From assembly GCF_900115345.1 (NCBI RefSeq), contig NZ_FOWC01000002.1, forward strand, positions 372,001 to 436,000: DNA of 64,000 bases, read 5' to 3'. A model generated the notes under the pieces. The model searched no databases, was not told the origin of the DNA, and was given only the letters and a program-made list of their open reading frames with translations. This document shows, piece after piece, positions 13,952 to 31,900 of the stretch. Each line of letters starts with the position of its first letter. Positions within the stretch are counted from its first letter, which is position 1. Both the position numbers and the translations under genes were made by a program. The DNA is from Amycolatopsis rubida. GTDB lineage: Bacteria > Actinomycetota > Actinomycetes > Mycobacteriales > Pseudonocardiaceae.

Positions 13952-14439
13952 CCGTGGTGCACACCGTCATCGACAGCCCTGAGGGCCCGCTGACCCTCAT
14001 GGCCCGCGACGGCGGACTGGCCGGCCTGTACATCGGCGACGAGCAGTACCGCCCACCACGCGCCGCCTTCGGCGACCGGGACGACCGCCCGTTCGCCGCG
14101 GCGGCCCGTCAGCTGAACGAGTACTTCGCCGGTGACCGGGTTGAGTTCGACCTTCCGTTAGCTTTCAGCGGCACTCCTTTCCAAGAGACGGTGTGGCGGG
14201 CGCTCCTGCAGATCCCGTACGGCGCGACGACGACCTACCGAGAGCTGGCGGAGTCGATCGGCCGCCCGACGGCGTCCCGTGCGGTCGGCCTGGCGAACGG
14301 CCGGAACCCCATCGGCATCGTGGTGCCGTGCCACCGGGTGCTGGGCAGCAACGGATCGCTGACCGGCTACGCGGCTGGGGTGGAGTGCAAGCGGAGGTTG
14401 CTGGAACTGGAGCGGGGCGGGCGGGTGGTTGCGGGGTGA
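13948..14439 (+). CDS. ogt: Methylated-DNA-protein-cysteine methyltransferase
   Basis: A 163-residue O6-alkylguanine-DNA alkyltransferase that directly reverses O6-methylguanine. The active-site motif is IVVPCHRVLGSNGSLTGYAAG with acceptor Cys128. The DNA-binding helix region is PYGATTTYRELAESIGRPTASRAVGLANG. The length is standard. The ATG overlaps the Ada-AlkA stop (ATGA), so the two alkylation-repair genes are translationally coupled and presumably induced together by the Ada domain. Confidence 0.95.
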   Translation: MTVVHTVIDSPEGPLTLMARDGGLAGLYIGDEQYRPPRAAFGDRDDRPFAAAARQLNEYFAGDRVEFDLPLAFSGTPFQETVWRALLQIPYGATTTYRELAESIGRPTASRAVGLANGRNPIGIVVPCHRVLGSNGSLTGYAAGVECKRRLLELERGGRVVAG

Positions 14440-20654: not shown

Positions 20655-21161
20655 ATGGTTCCCGGATATCGGGAGCGCACCCTCGGTTTGCGCTCGGCAA
20701 TGACCCGATTCCAGGCCGGACGGCAGTGAACTTTTCGCGAGCGGCCCCGGGCAGACGCGTCCGCCCGGGCTGTCCGCGACGGAAACCCCCGGTTGCCCGC
20801 CGGCGAACTTCCGGCGCACAGTCGTGCCCACCGCTGCCGCAAGATCGCTTGCCCGCCAACGCGAACCGCGCGAATCAGACGATCCGCCGAGCGACCGCGG
20901 CGCCGAACCGCCGGTGCCGCAACCCATCCAGGGCCGAACCCGGCGAAAGGTCAACCCGGGCAACGCACTGAACCCGCGAGACATTGGCCTGGACCACTCG
21001 GCGCACACCGCGAACCCGTGCCCGCGCAGCCGCAACCTCCGCTCGTCGTCACCCACACGGGTAATCGCTGGCCTGGAGGTAAGCGAAAACACACCGGATC
21101 CCCAGGAAAAACACGAAAAACGTTGTGCGGGACACAGCGCTCGCGCGCGCGAAAGAGGACC
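20655..21161. other. 507-bp intergenic stretch with a weak hairpin at 20660-20674
   Basis: Immediately after the 20232 gene there is a small hairpin TCCCG-GATAT-CGGGA (20660-20674), a possible weak terminator. The rest, to the start of the Rv1733c-like gene, shows only low-complexity open frames. Just before the next gene, CACGAAAAACG (21113-21123) is a local A-rich stretch that could belong to its promoter. Confidence 0.5.
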
Positions 21162-21794
21162 ATGAGAGGCATGCGGAACAGGACTCGGGCAGGCAGACCA
21201 CCACACCCTGGTAAACGATTGCTCCGACGGCTCGGCGCCGTGCGCAACCCGCTCGTGCGACGGTCGGACCGGATCGAAGGCGTGCTCGCCGGCATCGTCA
21301 CACTGCTGGCGCTCATCGCGATTCCCTTCGCCATGATGATCGGCAGCGAGGACGTCGCCGCGGAGACCGCCGCGTCGGACGCGCAACTGCAGTCGCGGCA
21401 TCAGGTCACCGCCACGGTGCTGACGACGGCCGCGCAGCCGGCCGCTTCCGTCGGCGACAGCGCGCCGATCGCCAACACCGCGCGCGTGAACGCGGTCTGG
21501 AAGCCGCCGCACGGCGTGCAGCGCACCGGCGTCATCACGGTGCCCGCCGCTTCCGCGACCGAGGGCTCGACCACCGACATCTGGCTGGACGACAGCGGCA
21601 AGCAGACCACCGCCCCGCTGACGCACGCGGACGCGGTCACCAACGGCGTGCTCGTCGCGGCCTTCTGCTGGCTGTGCGCGGTCGGCGTGCTGGGCGGCGC
21701 GTTCTGGATCGCGCGGCGAGTGCTCGACCACCGGCGTGCGGCGCGGTGGGCTGACGAATGGGCGCAGTTCGCCGGCCCGGAAGCGGTTCGCTGA
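21162..21794 (+). CDS. Rv1733c-family two-pass membrane protein
   Basis: A 210-residue membrane protein. The basic N-terminus ends RNPLVRRSDRIEGVLAG, followed by transmembrane segment 1 at about 42-64. An extracytoplasmic domain then contains SRHQVTATVLTTAA and STTDIWLDDSGKQTTAPL. Transmembrane segment 2 lies at about 165-187, with a short cytoplasmic tail RRVLDHRRAARWADEW. This order is that of the mycobacterial Rv1733c family, whose function is unknown. ATG 21162 follows AAAGAGGA; ATG 21171 is an alternative. Confidence 0.85.
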   Translation: MRGMRNRTRAGRPPHPGKRLLRRLGAVRNPLVRRSDRIEGVLAGIVTLLALIAIPFAMMIGSEDVAAETAASDAQLQSRHQVTATVLTTAAQPAASVGDSAPIANTARVNAVWKPPHGVQRTGVITVPAASATEGSTTDIWLDDSGKQTTAPLTHADAVTNGVLVAAFCWLCAVGVLGGAFWIARRVLDHRRAARWADEWAQFAGPEAVR

Positions 21795-22236
21795 CAGCCC
21801 CGCCAGCCGTGGTGCTCCCCTCTCGGCTGCCGGACGGGTGCGATCCGCCAATCCGGCGGCCGATCGCTGGCACCTAGGCACGCCGTGCACGGGCTTGGTG
21901 CCCACCGAAGTTCCGCGCAGCAAGTCCCCTGGCACTGGTACACGCGTTCTCGACAGCCCGGCCAGCAGCGTGGTGCGCCGGGTCCGGAGGCAGTTCGCTG
22001 ACACGTCTGCTGCCTCCGGACCCGGCCTCGGCGGACCGAGCGGGGCGACACCCCCAGCGTCGCCCCGGGCCGGTACTACGCCTGCCGCCCTGCCCGGAAT
22101 ATGTGGCGAGTTAGCCACCAGCTATCTCGTTGAGGGACAGTCTTGTGGAGCCCTCCGGCGATTGTCAACTGTGAGCTAATCTGAGATAGTCGCCTTAGCT
22201 GAGAGCAATCAGCTGCAACTGGAGGGGCGTAGCAGC
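21795..22236. other. 442-bp intergenic stretch with imperfect repeats
   Basis: Two imperfect copies of a GACAGCCC-GCCAGC-GTGGTGC block occur at about 21792 and 21951, each near a GTTCGCTGACA word (21788 and 21994). No gene was recognised. The right end holds the promoter of the EspR-like gene. Confidence 0.5.
22162..22200 (+). promoter_or_regulatory. Promoter and AGCTAA/TTAGCT operator of the EspR-like/ImmA operon
   Basis: -35 TTGTCA (22162-22167) and -10 GATAGT (22185-22190) with a 17-bp spacer, a good vegetative promoter. An inverted repeat AGCTAA (22174-22179) and TTAGCT (22195-22200) brackets the -10. Related words AGCTATCTCG (about 22121) and AGCTGAGAGC (22197) lie nearby. This is a likely autoregulatory site for the XRE-type regulator. 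Confidence 0.65.
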
Positions 22237-23444: not shown

Positions 23445-26400
23445 CTACCTCAACCCGCCCAACTCAGCCCCCACCACCCCCACCGCATACCGCAACTGAT
23501 CCTCCCGATGCTCACTGGTGATGAAGAACCGCAACCGAGCCAACTCCTCATCCACCGCCGGGTACAGAATCGGATCCACCACCACCCCCCGCTCGTACAG
23601 CGTCGTCGCCAGTCTCAGCGCGACATCCGAACTCCCCACCACGCAAGGCACAATCGGCGTATCCCCAGCCGACCCCGTCGGCAACCCCGCCGAAGTAGCC
23701 AGTTCCAGGAACAACCGGGAGTTCTCCCGCAGCCGTACCAACCTCTCCGGCTCCTCCTGCACAATCTTCAACGCCGCAAGCGAAGCAGCGGCATTAGCCG
23801 GAGTAATCCCCACGCTGTAAACAAACCCAGGCAGCGAATACCGCAACCACCGCACCGTCCGGGCCGACCCGGCCAGATACCCCCCGCACCCGGCCAACGA
23901 CTTCGACAGGGTCCCCATCCAAAGATCAACCCCGGACCGATCCACCGCGAAGTGGTCGCCGATCCCAGCTCCCCGAGGCCCCATCGTCCCGATACTGTGC
24001 GCCTCGTCAACCATCAGCAACGCCCCATAGCGCCGCTTGAGCTCAATCAACGCAGGCAGATCGGCGACATCACCGTCCATGCTGTACACGCCTTCGACCA
24101 CGATCAGCACCCGCCGGAACCGGGACCGCGACCGGCGCAGCACGTCCTCCAGCCGTGCCGTGTCGTTGTGCGGAAACGGCTGCCGCGTAGCCCCGGACAG
24201 CGCACACCCTTGCAGAATGCTGTCGTGCGCCAGCGAATCGTGCACGATCAGGTCACCGGGCCCGACCAGATGGCCGATCGCGCCCACATTCGTCGCGTGC
24301 CCGCTCACCAGGACGAGACTGTCCTCGACCCCCAGGAACGCCGCGAGCTCCGTCTCCAGGTCACGCGACAGATCCCGGTCCCCAGCGAGCAATCGGCTGC
24401 CGGACACGGAAGTCCCGTACCGCTCGACGGCATCGTGCACCGCCGCGGTCACCGCCGGATGCCCAGCCAGCCCAAGATAGTTGTAGCTGGAAAAGGACAG
24501 GTACTCCCGCCCGGAGACCGACGTCGTGGCGTCCATCCGTCCCTGATGCTTGCGGAAGTACGGATTGGGCACGCCAAGATCGTCAAACTCCTTCAGCCGC
24601 GCCTCGATGGCCGCCGCCTCCGGAAACTCCTCGATCGCCGCACTGGCCGGATCCCACGACGGAGCCGGAGCAGGCTGGGCCGGAGCAGCCGGGACCAAAG
24701 CCGTTGCCGGAGCGAGCATCCCGGCCACCGCCCCGACTGTCAGCGCCGCTGACTGCTCGACCTCCACCGGCGACCCCGGGAACCGCTTACGCAGCCGCCC
24801 CTCCAACTCGGTGAGCATCAACGAATCGAACCCGAGGTCGTCCACCAGCAACTGCCCGGCATACAACTCGCTGACCGGAAACGCCGTCGTCCGCGCGACT
24901 TCTTCGAGCACGACCGCCAACACGTCCCGCGCGGAAGTCGTCTCCTCCGCCTCCTCGACCGATGCCGCAGCAGCCCCGAGCGGCTCCAGCGTGTGTGCCT
25001 TGGCGAGCTTCGCGTCGTCGACCACCCAGTGCCGACGCGGGCTGAGCGGGCTCGGCGGCAGCGTGCAGCGCGGCAGGCCGTCCGCCACCGGGCGCAGCCC
25101 GGACCCGGTCACCGCGCGCGGAGCCAGCTCGGCTGGCAGACCGTCCTCGACCGGCTCCTCTCCCGGTGACACAACACCAGCGAAGACGCCAGGACCAAGC
25201 TCGCCGCCTTGGCCGGATTCGAGCGCGACCGACGCGGCGACGAGCTTGGAAACCGCGTCAGCGATGTCGTTCGCGGCCACCGCGAGCCGCTCCGGGAAGA
25301 GCGTTCGGCGGGCGAGTGTGCCCGCGACGGCGGCCAGCGGCGGGTTCTCGCTGCCGAGCGCCTCGGCCACTTCGCGGGCGTGCCTGGCCAGCCCGGCCCG
25401 GTCCCGTGCGGTGAGCAGCAGCAACCGCGGCGTCTCGGCTGGCGGCGTTTCCTGCGCCGTTTCCTCGACCACCACGTGCACGTTCGAGCCGCCGAAGCCG
25501 AACGCGCTCACCCCGGCCCGGCGCGGCCCGTCGCTGTTCCACGGCGTGACCTGGCCCGCTATCTGAAGCCCGGCGTCCCGCAGCGGCAGCTGCTCGGCCG
25601 GTTCGAAATCCGGCTGCGGCAGAATTTGTCCCTTGTGGACAGACAAAATGGACTTGATCAGCCCGGCGATTCCCGCGGTGCCAAGGGAATGCCCGACCAC
25701 CGACTTCGCCGCGCCGAGATACGCCGGGTTCTCCGCGCCGCGACGCAGCTCGGTCAGCGCGCTGATCTCCACGTCGTCGCCGACCGCGGTCGCGGTGCCG
25801 TGCGCTTCCAGGAACCCGACCGACGCCGGGTCGACCCCCGCGTCCCGGTACGCCCGCCGCAACGCTCGCAGCTGACCGGACTCCTGCGGCATCATGCCGC
25901 CCTTGACCGTGCCGTCGTTGGACAGCCCGACGCCGCGGATCACCGCGTACACCCGGTCGCCCGCCGCCCGTGCGTCCGCGAGCGGGCGCAGCACCAGGAC
26001 GCCGGCCCCCTCGCCGAGCACGAACCCGTCGGCCCGGCGGTCGAACGGCCGGCATTCGCCGGTGCGCGAGATCGCGCCGATCCGGCACAGGCCCACGAAC
26101 AGGTCCGGAGACAGCACGAGCTGTGCGCCGCCGGCGACGGCGATCCGGCAGCGGCCCGCCCGCAGGGCGAACACCGCGTTCGCCACCGCGGTCAGCCCGC
26201 CGGAGCAGGCCGAATCGAGCGCGTAGCTCTCTCCGTGCAGGTCGAAGACGCTGCTGATCGAACTCGGCCCCATGTTGAGCAGCAGCCCGGCCATCGCGGT
26301 GGCGTGCAGGCCGCTGACCGCGGATGCCGCCTCGGCCATCGCCGGATCGCCCGCCCGGCCGAATTCGCCGCCGATCAGCTGTTTCAGCCGCAGGTGCAGT

Positions 26401-26834
26401 GTGCTCATGTCGCGGTAGCCGCTGTCGCTGAGCGACATGATCACCGATGTGTCGTCGCGGTCGAAGCCCTCGGCCTCCCATCCCGCGTCCTGCAGCGCTT
26501 CGCGGGTCAGGTCGACCAGCAGCCGGTGCTGCGGGTCGAGCGATTTGGCCCGCCGCGGCGGGATCTTGTAGTGCCCGGCGTCGAAGTCGCCGACGTCCTC
26601 CAGCAGCGCCATGCGGTCGGAGTAGACCGCTCCGCTGTCCCGGAAATCGTCGTTGTAGAACGCTTCGCGCCGCCACCGCGAATCCGGCACTCGCCGAAAC
26701 TGCGGCTTGGGCTCGCTCAGCAGATCCCAGTACTCGTTGACGTTGCGCGCCCCCGGAAAACGGCATCCCATTCCGACAACGGCGATGTCCTGGCTATTTT
26801 CGGATTCTTCCCACTCAGATCTTGCAGACCCCAT
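23445..26834 (-). CDS. Ketosynthase-ACP-alpha-oxoamine synthase fusion (single-module PKS-AOS)
   Basis: An 1129-residue trimodular enzyme. Residues 15-455 are a type I ketosynthase with a complete triad: Cys210 (ALDSACSGG, replacing the usual DTACSSS), His345 (EAHGTAT) and His382 (GHSLGTAG). Residues 465-615 are a linker ending PRRHWVVDD, the usual post-AT sequence, but no acyltransferase domain is present. Residues 635-705 are an acyl carrier protein with phosphopantetheine Ser671 (DDLGFDSLMLTELE). Residues 735-1129 are an alpha-oxoamine synthase of the AONS/serine-palmitoyltransferase fold with DEAH (943-946) and PLP-Lys978 (GTLSKSLAG). The AOS would release the ACP-bound chain by decarboxylative condensation with an amino acid, giving an alpha-amino ketone. 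ATG 26834 follows AGGAAG. It is probably co-transcribed with the SDR gene upstream. Confidence 0.9.
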   Translation of the reverse strand: MGSARSEWEESENSQDIAVVGMGCRFPGARNVNEYWDLLSEPKPQFRRVPDSRWRREAFYNDDFRDSGAVYSDRMALLEDVGDFDAGHYKIPPRRAKSLDPQHRLLVDLTREALQDAGWEAEGFDRDDTSVIMSLSDSGYRDMSTLHLRLKQLIGGEFGRAGDPAMAEAASAVSGLHATAMAGLLLNMGPSSISSVFDLHGESYALDSACSGGLTAVANAVFALRAGRCRIAVAGGAQLVLSPDLFVGLCRIGAISRTGECRPFDRRADGFVLGEGAGVLVLRPLADARAAGDRVYAVIRGVGLSNDGTVKGGMMPQESGQLRALRRAYRDAGVDPASVGFLEAHGTATAVGDDVEISALTELRRGAENPAYLGAAKSVVGHSLGTAGIAGLIKSILSVHKGQILPQPDFEPAEQLPLRDAGLQIAGQVTPWNSDGPRRAGVSAFGFGGSNVHVVVEETAQETPPAETPRLLLLTARDRAGLARHAREVAEALGSENPPLAAVAGTLARRTLFPERLAVAANDIADAVSKLVAASVALESGQGGELGPGVFAGVVSPGEEPVEDGLPAELAPRAVTGSGLRPVADGLPRCTLPPSPLSPRRHWVVDDAKLAKAHTLEPLGAAAASVEEAEETTSARDVLAVVLEEVARTTAFPVSELYAGQLLVDDLGFDSLMLTELEGRLRKRFPGSPVEVEQSAALTVGAVAGMLAPATALVPAAPAQPAPAPSWDPASAAIEEFPEAAAIEARLKEFDDLGVPNPYFRKHQGRMDATTSVSGREYLSFSSYNYLGLAGHPAVTAAVHDAVERYGTSVSGSRLLAGDRDLSRDLETELAAFLGVEDSLVLVSGHATNVGAIGHLVGPGDLIVHDSLAHDSILQGCALSGATRQPFPHNDTARLEDVLRRSRSRFRRVLIVVEGVYSMDGDVADLPALIELKRRYGALLMVDEAHSIGTMGPRGAGIGDHFAVDRSGVDLWMGTLSKSLAGCGGYLAGSARTVRWLRYSLPGFVYSVGITPANAAASLAALKIVQEEPERLVRLRENSRLFLELATSAGLPTGSAGDTPIVPCVVGSSDVALRLATTLYERGVVVDPILYPAVDEELARLRFFITSEHREDQLRYAVGVVGAELGGLR

Positions 26835-26941
26835 GGCATGACTTCCTCGTGCCGATCCCCACCCAGTCGACACCGAGATTGCCCGTTCTTACCCAGTTTT
26901 TCAAGGGCATTGGGCAAGGTGCGGAGGAATGCACAGGCAAC

Positions 26942-27883
26942 TCAACTCACGGTAGCCAAGCGATCACGCCACCAGGCCACGGTACTGGCAAATTGATCTT
27001 TCTCTCCCGTCGGCGTAATATCGAAGAATTCCTGTGCCGCATGGGAATCGAGCACGTACGGACGGTCAAACTGGTAGCGGACCTCCCGCAGCTCGCGCAA
27101 CATCGGCGAAACGAGTGCGCCCGCCTTCAGTAACATCGGGGAAAGGCGTTGCACCGGCACCGGGGCCACTCCGGCCGCCTCGCACAACAGCGCGACCATC
27201 ACCCGAGCGGACCGCGGCGGACCAGTCGGCACATGCCACGTCCTGCCCCACGCCTTTTCTTCCCGCGCGGCCGCGACCAGCGTGCGCGCGACATCGGAAA
27301 TGTAGGTCCAGCTGTGCGCGGCGTCCGGATCGCCGAGTACCTGGACCTTCCGCCCGTGCAGCACGTTCGGCACCACTCGGGCGGCGAGATGGCCGCCGTC
27401 GGTCACTCCGGGACCGAAGAAATCGGAGGCACGCACCTCGACCACGCGGATGCGGCCCTCGTCGTGCAATGCGTGCAGTTGTTCGGACAGCAAAGCCCGG
27501 ATCCGGCCCTTTGTCCCGGTGGCCGCGAGCGGCAGATTCTCAGTGAGCGGACCATCGACCGGGCCGTAGCCGTACAAATTCCCCAGCGACACCAGCAGCG
27601 CGCCGTTCGCTTCGGCCGCGGCGCACATCGAGGCCTGCAACGGCGGCCAATCGGTCGCCCACCGATGATATGGCGGGCTGGCGCAGCTGTAGATCGCTGT
27701 CGCCCCCTCGGTCGCTTCGACGAGCGCGGCCTGGTCGGCGGCGTCGAGCGAGACGTGCTCCAGCCCCGGCTCGGGTTCCCGGGGCGAACGGCCGATCACC
27801 CGGACCCGCTCTCCTTGTTCAGCCAGCAGCGCGGCGGTGGCCGCCCCCGCCGGTCCGTGCCCGATCACCACCTGAAGACTCAT
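26942..27883 (-). CDS. NAD(P)-dependent epimerase/dehydratase-type (extended SDR-like) protein
   Basis: A 313-residue Rossmann-fold protein. It has the nucleotide-binding VVIGHGPAGAATAALLAEQGERVRVIGRS, AIYSCASPPYHRW, LVSLGNLYGYGP, and TKGRIRALLSEQL. The Tyr expected four residues before the catalytic Lys is not seen (ATGTK), so activity as a classic epimerase is uncertain. It may be an atypical reductase. A TAGGGT box 6 bases before ATG 27883 suggests a leaderless start. The gene lies 107 bases upstream of the KS-ACP-AOS gene on the same strand, and a role in reducing or modifying its product is inferred from position only. Confidence 0.8.
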   Translation of the reverse strand: MSLQVVIGHGPAGAATAALLAEQGERVRVIGRSPREPEPGLEHVSLDAADQAALVEATEGATAIYSCASPPYHRWATDWPPLQASMCAAAEANGALLVSLGNLYGYGPVDGPLTENLPLAATGTKGRIRALLSEQLHALHDEGRIRVVEVRASDFFGPGVTDGGHLAARVVPNVLHGRKVQVLGDPDAAHSWTYISDVARTLVAAAREEKAWGRTWHVPTGPPRSARVMVALLCEAAGVAPVPVQRLSPMLLKAGALVSPMLRELREVRYQFDRPYVLDSHAAQEFFDITPTGEKDQFASTVAWWRDRLATVS

Positions 27884-28147: not shown

Positions 28148-29278
28148 GTGAACACTCTGAAGATCATCTTATTCTCTCTGTCGGCGGTATCCTCGTACGC
28201 GGCCTTGCTGTACAAGCTTTTCTCGATGCGCCGCTCGTGGCGCGACCCGGCCTACATCGTGCTGATGACGACGCTGATCCTGCAGTGCGTCACCTTCACC
28301 CTCGGCGCCCTCTCGCTCAGCATCGGCTCGCTGTTCGGGATCCCCAATCTGGCGATCTTGATCTTGCACCTGGCCGCGGTCGCGTACTGCATCAGCGCGC
28401 AGCTCCTGCTGATGCTGTGGGCGAATCCCCCGGCGGAAATCCGCACGCGGATCCGGGCGTGGATCGTCTCCGGCGCGGTGCTGTTCGTCGTGCTGACCGT
28501 GCTGTTCTTCATCGGCAACAAACCGGGCACCCCGGGCACCGCCTTCGCGGTGGGCAGCGGCGACCCGGTGATCCTCACCTACCTGCTGCTGTTCATCGTT
28601 TCGCAGGCCGTGCCGTGCGTGACGATCTACCTGCAATGCCTGCCGTACGCGCGAAGCACGTCGCGGGTGTGGCTGCGCCGGACCCTGAAGACGCTCGCGG
28701 TCGGTGCGGTCGTGCTGTTCTGCTACTGCGCCACGCGCGCGGTGAACATCGTGAGCCCGGCACTCGGCTGGCGCCTCGGCGCGTGGGCGATCGTGCCCTC
28801 TGTGTTCAGTGCGCTGGGCATCGTGATCGTGTCGTTCGGGCTGACCATGCCGTCGTGGGGCGAGCACGTCTCGTCGGTCGCGCGCTGGCAGCGCAATTAC
28901 CGTTCCTACCGCGCGCTCTACCCGCTGTGGCATTCGCTGTACGAATCCTCGCCGGGCATCGCGCTGGAACCGCCTGCCGAGGGAGACACCGATCGGCGCT
29001 GGTCGGACCTGCACTACCGGCTGCATCGCCGGGTGATCGAGATCCGTGACGGCTGGCGCGCGCTGCGGCCGTACATGGACCGCGCCGACACCCCGGACGG
29101 CGACCAGGCGATGGCCGAGGCTCGCAAGATCCGCCAGGCGCTGGAGGCGAAGACCTCCGGGCTGACCCCGGCGGAAAGCCAGGACAACGGCGCGTTCGAC
29201 GACCACGACGCGAAGACGTTCGAGGCCGAGGTCGCCTGGCTCACCCAGGTGTCGGCGGCTTACGGCAAGCTGGTCTGA
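28148..29278 (+). CDS. MAB_1171c/DUF6545-type membrane protein
   Basis: A 376-residue protein. The N-terminal 235 residues form about seven transmembrane helices (for example LKIILFSLSAVSSYAALLYKLF; IPNLAILILHLAAVAYCISAQLLLML; AVLFVVLTVLFFIGNK). A cytoplasmic region follows with WQRNYRSYRALYPLWHSLYESSPGIAL, DLHYRLHRRVIEIRDGWRALRPYM and a helical end. This WxxL..L....PgiaL pattern is typical of the actinobacterial MAB_1171c (DUF6545) group, which is often found near XRE and ImmA-type genes. GTG 28148 has a weak GGGGGCG upstream. No biochemical function is known. The 3' end overlaps the convergent gene by 19 bases. Confidence 0.8.
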   Translation: MNTLKIILFSLSAVSSYAALLYKLFSMRRSWRDPAYIVLMTTLILQCVTFTLGALSLSIGSLFGIPNLAILILHLAAVAYCISAQLLLMLWANPPAEIRTRIRAWIVSGAVLFVVLTVLFFIGNKPGTPGTAFAVGSGDPVILTYLLLFIVSQAVPCVTIYLQCLPYARSTSRVWLRRTLKTLAVGAVVLFCYCATRAVNIVSPALGWRLGAWAIVPSVFSALGIVIVSFGLTMPSWGEHVSSVARWQRNYRSYRALYPLWHSLYESSPGIALEPPAEGDTDRRWSDLHYRLHRRVIEIRDGWRALRPYMDRADTPDGDQAMAEARKIRQALEAKTSGLTPAESQDNGAFDDHDAKTFEAEVAWLTQVSAAYGKLV

Positions 29279-30678: not shown

Positions 30679-30711
30679 ACGCTAAACCTTGCCCTCAGCG
30701 TCAAGGCAAGG
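30679..30711 (-). promoter_or_regulatory. MerR-type promoter with 19-bp spacer and dyad
   Basis: On the minus strand TTGCCT (30709-30704) and TAGCGT (30684-30679) are separated by 19 bp, the over-long spacer typical of MerR-activated promoters. A 7-bp dyad CCTTGCC/GGCAAGG (30687-30693 and 30705-30711) overlaps the -35 and spacer. It also overlaps the stop codon region of the adjacent monooxygenase gene. Confidence 0.6.
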
Positions 30712-31900
30712 CCTGCACGCGAGGCTGCGGATATTCGCGGAACTTGACCGAGTTCGCCGCGCGGCTGCCCATGTACTCGAAGACGCGGCGGCCGAGCGGA
30801 CCGGTCAGCGAGCGGTACATCCGGTTGCGCTTGCGCAGCTTCTCCTCGGTGGCCGGGACCAGGAAGCCGCCCGAACCGGCTCCGTTGCGCTGCCCGACGC
30901 GGGCGGGTTTGCGCAGCCGCTGCTCGTAGCGGGCGAACGCGGTCACGTGGTCGCCGCCGGCCGCGGCGAGTTCCCCGGCCAGGACCTGCGCCCCCATCAT
31001 CGCGAGGCCGGTGCCGGATCCGCCCGGCCCGGCGCACCAGGCGGCGTCGCCCAGCAGCACGATCCGGCCGCGCGACCAGCTGTCGAGCTTGATCTGGCCG
31101 ACGGTGTCGAAGTACAGGTCAGGCGCGTCGGCGACGGCGGTGAGCAGCTGCGGGAGTTCCCATCCGGCGTTGGCGAAGACCTCGGTGACAATGTCCTTCT
31201 GCCGGGCCAGGCCGGGACGGCCGTACCCGTCCGTGTCGCCGCGGAAGGTGAGGCCGACGGTGACTGTCTCCGGGTCTCGGTGGCTGGTGACGATCGCGCC
31301 GAGGCCGGGTTCGTTGTAAAGCAGGCCCGCGCGGTCGAGGCGGAGGTGGTTGGGCGCGGTGAACCCGGCGACGTGGTAACCGAGGTCGGTGCGGAATTTC
31401 GCCTCCGGACCGAAGGCTGCCGTGCGCACGCCGGAGTGGATCCCGTCCGCGCCGGCCACCAGGTCGAACCGCCGCGGGGCGCCGTGGCGGAAGGTGACGT
31501 CGACGCCGTCGGAGGTCTCGGCGAGCGAGGTGACACGGTCGCCGAAGACGTACTCGGTGTAGTCCTTGGTGTGGTCGTAGAGGACGCGGGCGAGGTCGCC
31601 GCGCAGGACCTCCAGCTCGCCGTTGGTGAACCCGCTCGGCAAGGTGAACGCGGGTTGTCCGGCCGGGTCGAGCTGCACCTGCTCGCGCAGCGCGGTCTCG
31701 TGCTCCCGCAGGTCGTCGAGCAGGCCCATCGCTTCGACGAGTTTCATCTGCTCGCCGCGGAAGTCGACGGCCTGCCCGCCCGGCCGCAGCCGCGGCGCGG
31801 CCTCGACGACGGTCACCGAATAGCCGTAACGGTGCAGCCAGTAGGCGGCGGACGGACCCGCGACGCTGGCACCGGACACGAGAACGGTCTTGCTGGTCAT
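30701..31900 (-). CDS. FAD-dependent monooxygenase (TetX/PgaE-like fold)
   Basis: A 399-residue class A flavoprotein monooxygenase. The N-terminus is KTVLVSGASVAGPSAAYWLHRYG, with Ala/Ser variation in the GxGxxG loop common in this subgroup. It continues with AVDFRGEQM, AGADGIHSGVRTAAFG (DG motif) and GRIVLLGDAAWCAGPGGSGTGLAMMGA (GD motif). It lacks a C-terminal thioredoxin-like domain. The ATG is preceded by GGGGAG. It is probably controlled by the MarR regulator 84 bases upstream on the same strand. The substrate is likely a small aromatic or antibiotic; it cannot be told which. Confidence 0.88.
   Translation of the reverse strand: MTSKTVLVSGASVAGPSAAYWLHRYGYSVTVVEAAPRLRPGGQAVDFRGEQMKLVEAMGLLDDLREHETALREQVQLDPAGQPAFTLPSGFTNGELEVLRGDLARVLYDHTKDYTEYVFGDRVTSLAETSDGVDVTFRHGAPRRFDLVAGADGIHSGVRTAAFGPEAKFRTDLGYHVAGFTAPNHLRLDRAGLLYNEPGLGAIVTSHRDPETVTVGLTFRGDTDGYGRPGLARQKDIVTEVFANAGWELPQLLTAVADAPDLYFDTVGQIKLDSWSRGRIVLLGDAAWCAGPGGSGTGLAMMGAQVLAGELAAAGGDHVTAFARYEQRLRKPARVGQRNGAGSGGFLVPATEEKLRKRNRMYRSLTGPLGRRVFEYMGSRAANSVKFREYPQPRVQALP

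Follow-up and report, generated by a model that had tools for sequence, protein, structure and literature searches.

What does a polyketide synthase (PKS) make when it carries no acyltransferase (AT) of its own, and why should the same regulatory genes lie beside it at one locus after another? These questions were raised by a locus of Amycolatopsis rubida (assembly GCF_900115345.1, contig NZ_FOWC01000002.1, positions 372,001 to 436,000), a stretch of 64,000 nucleotides that was analysed as a whole and is referred to here as the window. The locus encodes a protein in which a ketosynthase (KS), an acyl carrier protein (ACP) and an alpha-oxoamine synthase (AOS) are fused, accompanied by a gene resembling short-chain dehydrogenases/reductases (SDR) and by an XRE-type regulator, an HExxH peptidase and a membrane protein with seven hydrophobic segments (7-TM). 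The last three genes are called the trio below. As judged by sequence comparison, the fusion is probably a minimal PKS-AOS enzyme whose integral AT was lost, and it is probably dedicated to a single conserved locus for a small molecule. The synthase is a variant of known PKS-AOS fusions; its constant link with regulator genes is the new part.

The link was seen in the distribution of the trio, detected by tblastn at the fetched loci. The trio was present at all 32 fetched loci of the AT-less clade (13 from Amycolatopsis and 19 from Streptomyces-like genomes), or 33 of 33 with the window, and at none of the 32 other AOS loci fetched in the first set. Two families were searched after the pattern had been seen, in which 12 of 170 and 15 of 170 genomes matched at E<=1e-150, and all 26 new matches from them were fetched, 8 AT-less and 18 AT-bearing. 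The eight AT-less loci, from five genera, all carried the SDR, XRE and peptidase genes, and seven carried the 7-TM gene and a TetR gene as well; the contig of the eighth (L176), 8.5 kb in length, ended before them. The trio was found at none of the 18 AT-bearing loci (at one of them, L214, KS and AT matched in part only). In total, the 41 AT-less clade loci had the XRE gene at 41, the peptidase gene at 41 and the 7-TM gene at 40, with one contig ending first, while none of the other AOS loci fetched, 67 in number (32 + 12 + 23), had the trio. These 67 controls included L050, described below, and four loci of unseen AT status (L194 in G854, L198 in G973, L202 in G1052 and L209, the second match in G1141), at which no KS was seen and three of which were at contig ends. 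A stand-alone AOS with no KS in the same gene (L093) was outside the trio test, and three loci with AOS and trio on contigs that end before the KS (L191-L193, in G912, G984 and G1141) were not counted among the 41.

The SDR gene was less constant. It was found at 29 of the 32 loci fetched first (30 of 33 with the window) and at 38 of all 41, being absent from L037, L041 and L139. The initial annotation had proposed a two-gene route of synthase and SDR and a search for the pair in other actinomycetes; the pair did recur at those 38 loci, and a two-gene route proved too small a description, as the SDR was absent at 3 of 41 loci, the XRE and peptidase genes were never absent, and the 7-TM gene was missing only where a contig ends. 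A TetR gene was found at 18 of the 19 Streptomyces-like loci and upstream of the 7-TM gene at 3 of the 13 Amycolatopsis loci (L038, L039 and L041); no TetR match was obtained in the window.

The synthase and the three trio genes spanned 4.3-8.9 kb, a count in which the L037 peptidase was not among the called genes and L128 was entered with its AOS half only. With arrowheads for direction and PEP for the peptidase, the order in Amycolatopsis was XRE> PEP> <AOS <SDR 7TM>, and in Streptomyces-like genomes it was 7TM> XRE> PEP> <AOS <SDR, with L139 as a variant. As gene order differed between the two families, the linkage survived rearrangement. In trees, the linked 7-TM genes (33 rows against 14 paralogues) formed one side of a branch with a Shimodaira-Hasegawa-like approximate likelihood ratio test (SH-aLRT) support of 100, as did the linked peptidases (32 rows against 15 paralogues) with a support of 99.

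Whole genomes gave the same picture. Of 80 Amycolatopsis genomes, counting that of the window, 14 had the AT-less synthase, and the same 14 had the linked 7-TM subclade; weak 7-TM matches in G032 and G047 (ca. 5e-51, 33-34% identity) were treated as paralogues. Among 343 Streptomyces-like genomes, the linked 7-TM gene occurred in 22, namely those with the 19 fetched AT-less loci together with G912, G984 and G1141, which had the AOS, XRE, peptidase, 7-TM and TetR genes on contigs ending before the KS. Some AOS relative was present at E<=1e-85 in 55 of the 343; of the remaining 33 genomes, 30 had an AT in the same locus, and G854, G973 and G1052 had an AOS relative with no KS seen, two of them at contig ends. 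Were genomes independent, the sets would coincide by chance with a probability of about 7e-16 (80 genomes) and 4e-35 (343 genomes), values that are only indicative because genomes are not independent. Relatives were rare in broader samples, found in 10 of 397 genomes of the order sample (E<=1e-100) and 7 of 396 of the phylum sample (E<=1e-85), and among these matches the clade itself occurred only in Amycolatopsis and G803, a member of the genus called Streptomyces-like here, which is in all likelihood Streptomyces itself. Six named Amycolatopsis orthologues (84-96% identity) were among 16 related loci retrieved; the other 10 matched the AOS (9) or the KS (1) alone and were not used further.

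How the synthase came to lack an AT was addressed by examining its domains. The Pfam scan returned the ketoacyl-synt family (2e-68), the C-terminal KS half (1.6e-30), Aminotran_1_2 (5e-43) and PP-binding (21.2 bits against a cut-off of 20.8), and no acyltransferase, ketoreductase (KR), dehydratase (DH), enoylreductase (ER) or thioesterase (TE) family at E<=0.01. The initial annotation was upheld here: the open reading frame, Pfam domains, intact KS triad, ACP serine and pyridoxal phosphate (PLP) lysine agreed with the 1129-residue KS-ACP-AOS protein that it had described, its statement that AT, reductase and TE domains are absent held, and the profile search that it had proposed for an AT in the interval between KS and ACP found none. 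Alignment to AT-bearing relatives of the L140 type showed that the linkers on both sides were kept and that the AT core was absent between them, and the TLPP-P-W pattern of the post-AT linker was present in all 32 of the 33 clade rows that were listed. An AT hidden between KS and ACP was rejected, as Pfam found none and the alignment showed linkers only.

In the AOS tree, the AT-less clade formed one group of 32 rows (the window and 31 loci, with L128 included and L040 from G018 excluded for its short AOS match) at a support of 100/99, which bore out the earlier suggestion of a lineage of its own. The KS tree, built by a quick method with SH-aLRT values only, gave the clade a support of 100, also for the window and 31 loci; L128 was left out, its KS having been called apart. 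There the clade stood beside the AT-bearing proteins of L155 and L161 at 81 and with other AT-bearing Streptomyces-like proteins at 87. The KS nested with AT-bearing PKS-AOS proteins in a tree that had no reference trans-AT KS among its rows. Because one supported clade lay among AT-bearing relatives and kept both linkers, the AT was probably excised from an AT-bearing ancestral form. Loss is the likely direction of change, moderately supported since the KS-tree nesting reached 81 and 87. The synthase resembles trans-AT PKSs in lacking an integrated AT and keeping linker remnants, and it differs from them in that no discrete AT gene was matched near it at 32 loci. Its nearest KS and AOS relatives were the actinomycete KS-AT-ACP-AOS proteins (L044-L049, L092, L140-L142, L144-L155, L161, L179-L190 and others), which share its domain order apart from the AT that they carry and are without the trio.

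The kinds of relative found were the AT-less proteins with the trio, the KS-AT-ACP-AOS proteins, RedL-type proteins with A, ACP, KS, AT and AOS domains, and the proteins of L043 and L050. The first of these last two (L043:9173-16705, in an Amycolatopsis genome) was a fully reducing PKS fused to an AOS (KS-AT-DH-ER-KR-AOS), and one such protein was found. The other (L050:7665-10709) was an AT-less KS-AOS protein of 1014 residues with only 99 residues from the KS end to the ACP motif, and it is possibly a second, independent AT loss. At L092, L140-L142, L144-L155 and L161, where gene families were assigned by eye, an MmpL-like transporter gene lay beside 14 of 17 and a gene resembling phosphopantetheinyl transferases beside 9 of 17; the MmpL-like neighbours suggest an exported lipid at these AT-bearing sister loci.

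In an alignment of 33 clade rows (the window and 32 loci; residue numbers follow the 1142-residue form), the KS residues Cys223, His358, His395 and Lys390 were kept in all 32 rows with these columns, the one gapped row being taken as L128. The ACP Ser684 and the AOS residues Lys991, Asp956 and His959 were conserved in 33 of 33 rows and His859 in 32 of 33. The KS motif read ALDSACSGG in 27, ALDAACSGG in 4 and ALDSACSSG in 1 of the 32 rows with the column, and in this alignment ALDSACSGG is a mark of the lineage. At L040 the match to the KS-AOS gene was split in two close to the gene's end, and at L128 (G1111) KS and AOS were called as two genes; these may be broken copies, assembly errors or calling errors. 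The AOS domain scored 345 bits against TIGR00858, under the equivalog cut-off of 426, and structures of CqsA, from the AOS-made autoinducer systems (CqsA/LqsA), were distant matches (103 bits). The best PDB match of the KS was 7zma, a putative PKS.

Features of the locus in the window, with coordinates, strand and basis of assignment
Feature	Position	Strand	Basis or remark
KS-ACP-AOS fusion gene	23445..26834	-	1129 aa, ATG at 26834 behind GAGGAA
KS-ACP-AOS gene, longer GTG form	23445..26873	-	1142 aa; start 13 codons upstream of ATG
Ketosynthase domain with C-terminal extension	25329..26792	-	Pfam PF00109, PF02801, PF16197
KS active-site Cys motif ALDSACSGG	26196-26222	-	residue alignment
KS-AT linker domain, CurL-like, retained	25242..25424	-	PF22621, 20.6 bits, below cut-off 27
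Post-AT linker remnant CTLPPSPLSPRRHWV, site of missing AT core	25023..25067	-	alignment with AT-bearing L140
Acyl carrier protein domain, Ser684 in LGFDSLML	24723..24914	-	PF00550
Alpha-oxoamine synthase domain, PLP Lys991 in TLSKS	23478..24506	-	PF00155
Atypical extended SDR, 313 aa, upstream of synthase	26942..27883	-	PF01370 1.6e-18
Conserved element upstream of XRE gene: GATTGTCAACTGNNNGCTAATCTG, then TTAGCTGAGAGC	22160..22206	+	one strong site per locus, 32/32 loci
XRE-type regulator, 149 aa	22237..22686	+	HTH_3; PADLOC capH 4e-8
HExxH peptidase, ImmA/IrrE-like, 180 aa	22683..23225	+	4-base overlap with XRE gene
MAB_1171c/DUF6545 membrane protein, 7 hydrophobic segments + soluble C-terminal domain	28148..29278	+	NF042915

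The upstream, same-strand SDR gene matched PF01370; described as atypical from the outset, it was confirmed as such by its missing YxxxK. At that position the protein read K-G-R-x-R, with K125, G126 and R129 in 30 of 30 sequences (the window and 29 orthologues) and R127 in 29 of 30. A search of the window's own genome with the SDR found no second copy at E<=1e-6.

Among the regulator genes, HELGH was present in the peptidase at 32 of 32 loci. The peptidase best matched PF06114 (M78) at 18.3 bits against a cut-off of 22, and M78/IrrE was likewise the best yet sub-threshold match in all five peptidase family members tried. The 7-TM protein scored 358 bits against NF042915 (cut-off 100), and hydropathy counts gave seven hydrophobic segments in 27 of 33 proteins and six in the other 6. 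The literature searched, in which subscription journals were mostly outside reach, yielded a single paper on MAB_1171c and none on DUF6545; in that paper, a MAB_1171c knockout is reported to have about half the biofilm mass, and the protein is called a transporter (PMC8707978). Upstream of the XRE gene, a 24-base element had a best score of 24.7-33.5 and a next score of at most 11.9 at each of 32 loci, high scores that are partly built in, as these very sites had supplied the scoring matrix. When up to two mismatches were allowed in the first 12 bases, the element was also found before the XRE gene at seven of the eight later-fetched loci, L177 being without it. Elsewhere there were three stray matches, in two of the AT-less loci, and four more, in three of the 12 AT-bearing loci. 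The element is thus conserved in two bacterial families and is possibly an autoregulatory operator or promoter.

Several observations weigh against a dedicated, AT-less synthase controlled by its own regulators. At 32 loci, a phmmer search with one AT query over up to seven called genes to each side of the synthase matched no discrete AT gene. L050 is AT-less, outside the clade and without the trio. The AT-bearing L205 has a peptidase gene at 14330 (+), paralogue-like at 43% identity and 4.7 kb from the KS; neither XRE nor 7-TM gave a match in the 16 kb fetched there. A search for the conserved element before the synthase, SDR and 7-TM genes was negative, and with no shared site before the synthase, simple control of the synthase by XRE is not supported. 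Of 16 other 7-TM loci from five genomes, 14 carried XRE, peptidase and 7-TM genes together without KS-AOS, for which reason the trio may be a general control module. By gene content, the trio is therefore a recurrent cassette, of which the form linked to a KS-AOS makes up one subclade. Genes beside the other trios, assigned by eye, included amidohydrolases (L069, L074 and L078), a P450 (L082) and a methyltransferase (L081), and one neighbour set among the L068-L083 cassettes resembled ammonia-lyase, ACP and KS genes.

We propose that an acyl-ACP of primary metabolism supplies the KS with its acyl chain; a single extension most likely follows, for which FabD or a discrete AT would load malonate in trans. 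The chain would stay on the ACP until the AOS condensed it with an amino acid and released CO2, yielding an alpha-aminoketone that would cyclise to a 3-pyrrolinone if a beta-ketone were present. If the KS does elongate once, the RedL precedent points to the pyrrolinone rather than the free amino ketone. For a chain that reaches the AOS reduced or without extension, logic like that of serine palmitoyltransferase would lead to a sphingoid base. The SDR, where present, would modify the product. On the regulatory side, the M78-like peptidase would cleave the XRE repressor, as ImmA acts with ImmR and CapP with CapH. Such cleavage is the natural guess because of these precedents, in which ImmR inactivation is reported to require ImmA (PMC2701414) and CapP, activated by single-stranded DNA, is reported to cleave CapH (PMC13373217). 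The 7-TM protein would export or sense the product or a related cue, and TetR, where present, would be a further ligand-responsive repressor.

Of the alternatives, one concerns the trio itself, which may be a CapH/CapP-like stress switch for a toxic or protective metabolite, with the 7-TM protein as an exporter or immunity part and not a receptor. We regard this as a real possibility, though short of probable. In CapH/CapP and ImmR/ImmA, a helix-turn-helix repressor gene adjoins an M78-type peptidase gene, and here the XRE gene adjoins a peptidase gene with a sub-threshold M78 match; the XRE protein matched capH of PADLOC, the ssDNA-activated cleavage of CapH by CapP (PMC13373217) is a fitting precedent, and trios adjoin unrelated enzymes elsewhere. 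The trio differs from both systems by the addition of a 7-TM gene and a biosynthetic enzyme, and no site shared by the XRE and synthase promoter regions was found, which counts against this reading.

A second alternative would alter the product. In a sphinganine-like route no beta-ketone would reach the AOS, serine would be used, and a 3-ketosphinganine-like base would form, which the SDR may reduce. The nearest solved relative of the AOS domain by sequence was a bacterial serine palmitoyltransferase, 3a2b (241 bits), which has the same G-S-R stretch and points weakly to serine. The G-S-R stretch is a weak indicator of AOS substrate choice. In Pseudomonas, the iterative PKS SgaA and the separate, serine-specific AOS SgaB are reported to make sphinganines, with SgaB condensing an acyl thioester with serine and an SDR proposed for the next step (PMC12134224); a PKS-fed AOS that makes lipid bases is the likeness here. 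SgaA and SgaB are two proteins, whereas the synthase is a single one; it has no reductase domain, so that full chain reduction would need trans enzymes, and the SDR lacks the catalytic Tyr. We consider this route somewhat doubtful.

Unlikely, in our view, is a RedL-like route of one KS extension, use of glycine by the AOS, cyclisation to a 4-keto-2-alkylpyrroline and SDR reduction towards a 2-alkylpyrrole, as with RedL and RedK. The seven RedL-type proteins (L042, L051 and L156-L160) share the KS-ACP-AOS core in one protein, and an extended-SDR gene adjoins four of the seven loci (L042, L157, L158 and L160). The red gene names at L157-L160 were assigned from gene order and are presumptive. RedL is reported to release its chain by condensing the acyl thioester with an amino acid under decarboxylation (PMC12654105, PMC11188435), the chemistry predicted for the synthase here and, with that of RedK, the precedent for this route. 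Against it, the RedL-type proteins formed a separate clade (AOS tree, 100/99) and carry A (acyl ligase) and AT domains, in an A-ACP-KS-AT-ACP-AOS order that the synthase does not have; the GSRLLAG stretch of the synthase reads ATPLLFG or ATPLLCG in two of them, and none of the trio genes is present at the seven loci. All four RedK-type proteins have YNRSK where the SDR here has K-G-R-x-R, and an identity of this SDR with RedK was rejected on that difference. One of the seven, L042:7477-15666 in Amycolatopsis, is an A-ACP-KS-AT-AOS gene with a RedK-like SDR and a thioesterase-like gene; other red-like genes were not recognised by eye in 20 kb there, and an unknown 2-alkylpyrrole is a possible product.

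It is likewise improbable, to our judgement, that the KS does no elongation and only hands the fused ACP a chain that a fatty-acid carrier protein had borne, in which case the loss of the AT would reflect a loss of elongation. The AT core is gone across the whole aligned clade with no discrete AT nearby, and the KS Cys is followed by SGG, compared with SSS, SSA or SGS in the AT-bearing relatives shown in the alignment; yet the residues of an elongating KS (Cys, both His and Lys) are all retained. It is scarcely credible that the neighbourhood reflects no more than common descent of one stretch of chromosome, its genes being functionally unconnected. Most Amycolatopsis loci do occupy the same region with the same outer neighbours, but L041 retains the trio in different surroundings, and a synteny accident was rejected on that locus, the two gene orders in two families, the trees against paralogues, the matching presence/absence sets in 80 and 343 genomes and the later-fetched loci.

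A 2013 survey of PLP domains in PKSs and nonribosomal peptide synthetases listed a Streptomyces violaceusniger beta-ketoacyl synthase, G2P368, of 1136 residues, as an atypical exception with a fold-type I PLP domain, central ca. 400 residues that match no Pfam domain, and no recognised carrier protein (PMC3870968). This protein is probably a member of the AT-less family; L127 is also 1136 residues long by gene call. The survey passage gives neither neighbours nor function for it (PMC3870968). The locus was not found described in the literature searched, and the search for the same architecture with a known product, raised by the initial annotation, met no product assignment there.

Elsewhere near the locus, the window encodes an Rv1733c-family protein (20793-21794, +) and an FAD monooxygenase (30701-31900, -) whose matches to related, tetracycline-destructase-type families fell short of the cut-offs. 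Outside the window (G000:C24:279873-342269), ten KS domains in long frames marked a large modular type I PKS cluster ca. 30 kb from the window start.

Wherever the synthase was seen in the Amycolatopsis and Streptomyces-like genomes searched, a regulator, a protease and a membrane protein of its own came with it, which makes the locus an entry point to a controlled metabolite; the product may be a controlled signal or weapon. A bolder conjecture, for which we hold little expectation, is a new actinobacterial signalling class, in which an aminoketone or pyrrolinone lipid hormone is sensed by the 7-TM protein, the peptidase destroys the XRE repressor and TetR serves as a second receptor, with other XRE-peptidase-7-TM cassettes as receptors for other small molecules. 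The locus would show how fused PKS-AOS enzymes work after AT loss, and it may reveal the wiring of actinomycete XRE-peptidase-MAB_1171c cassettes.

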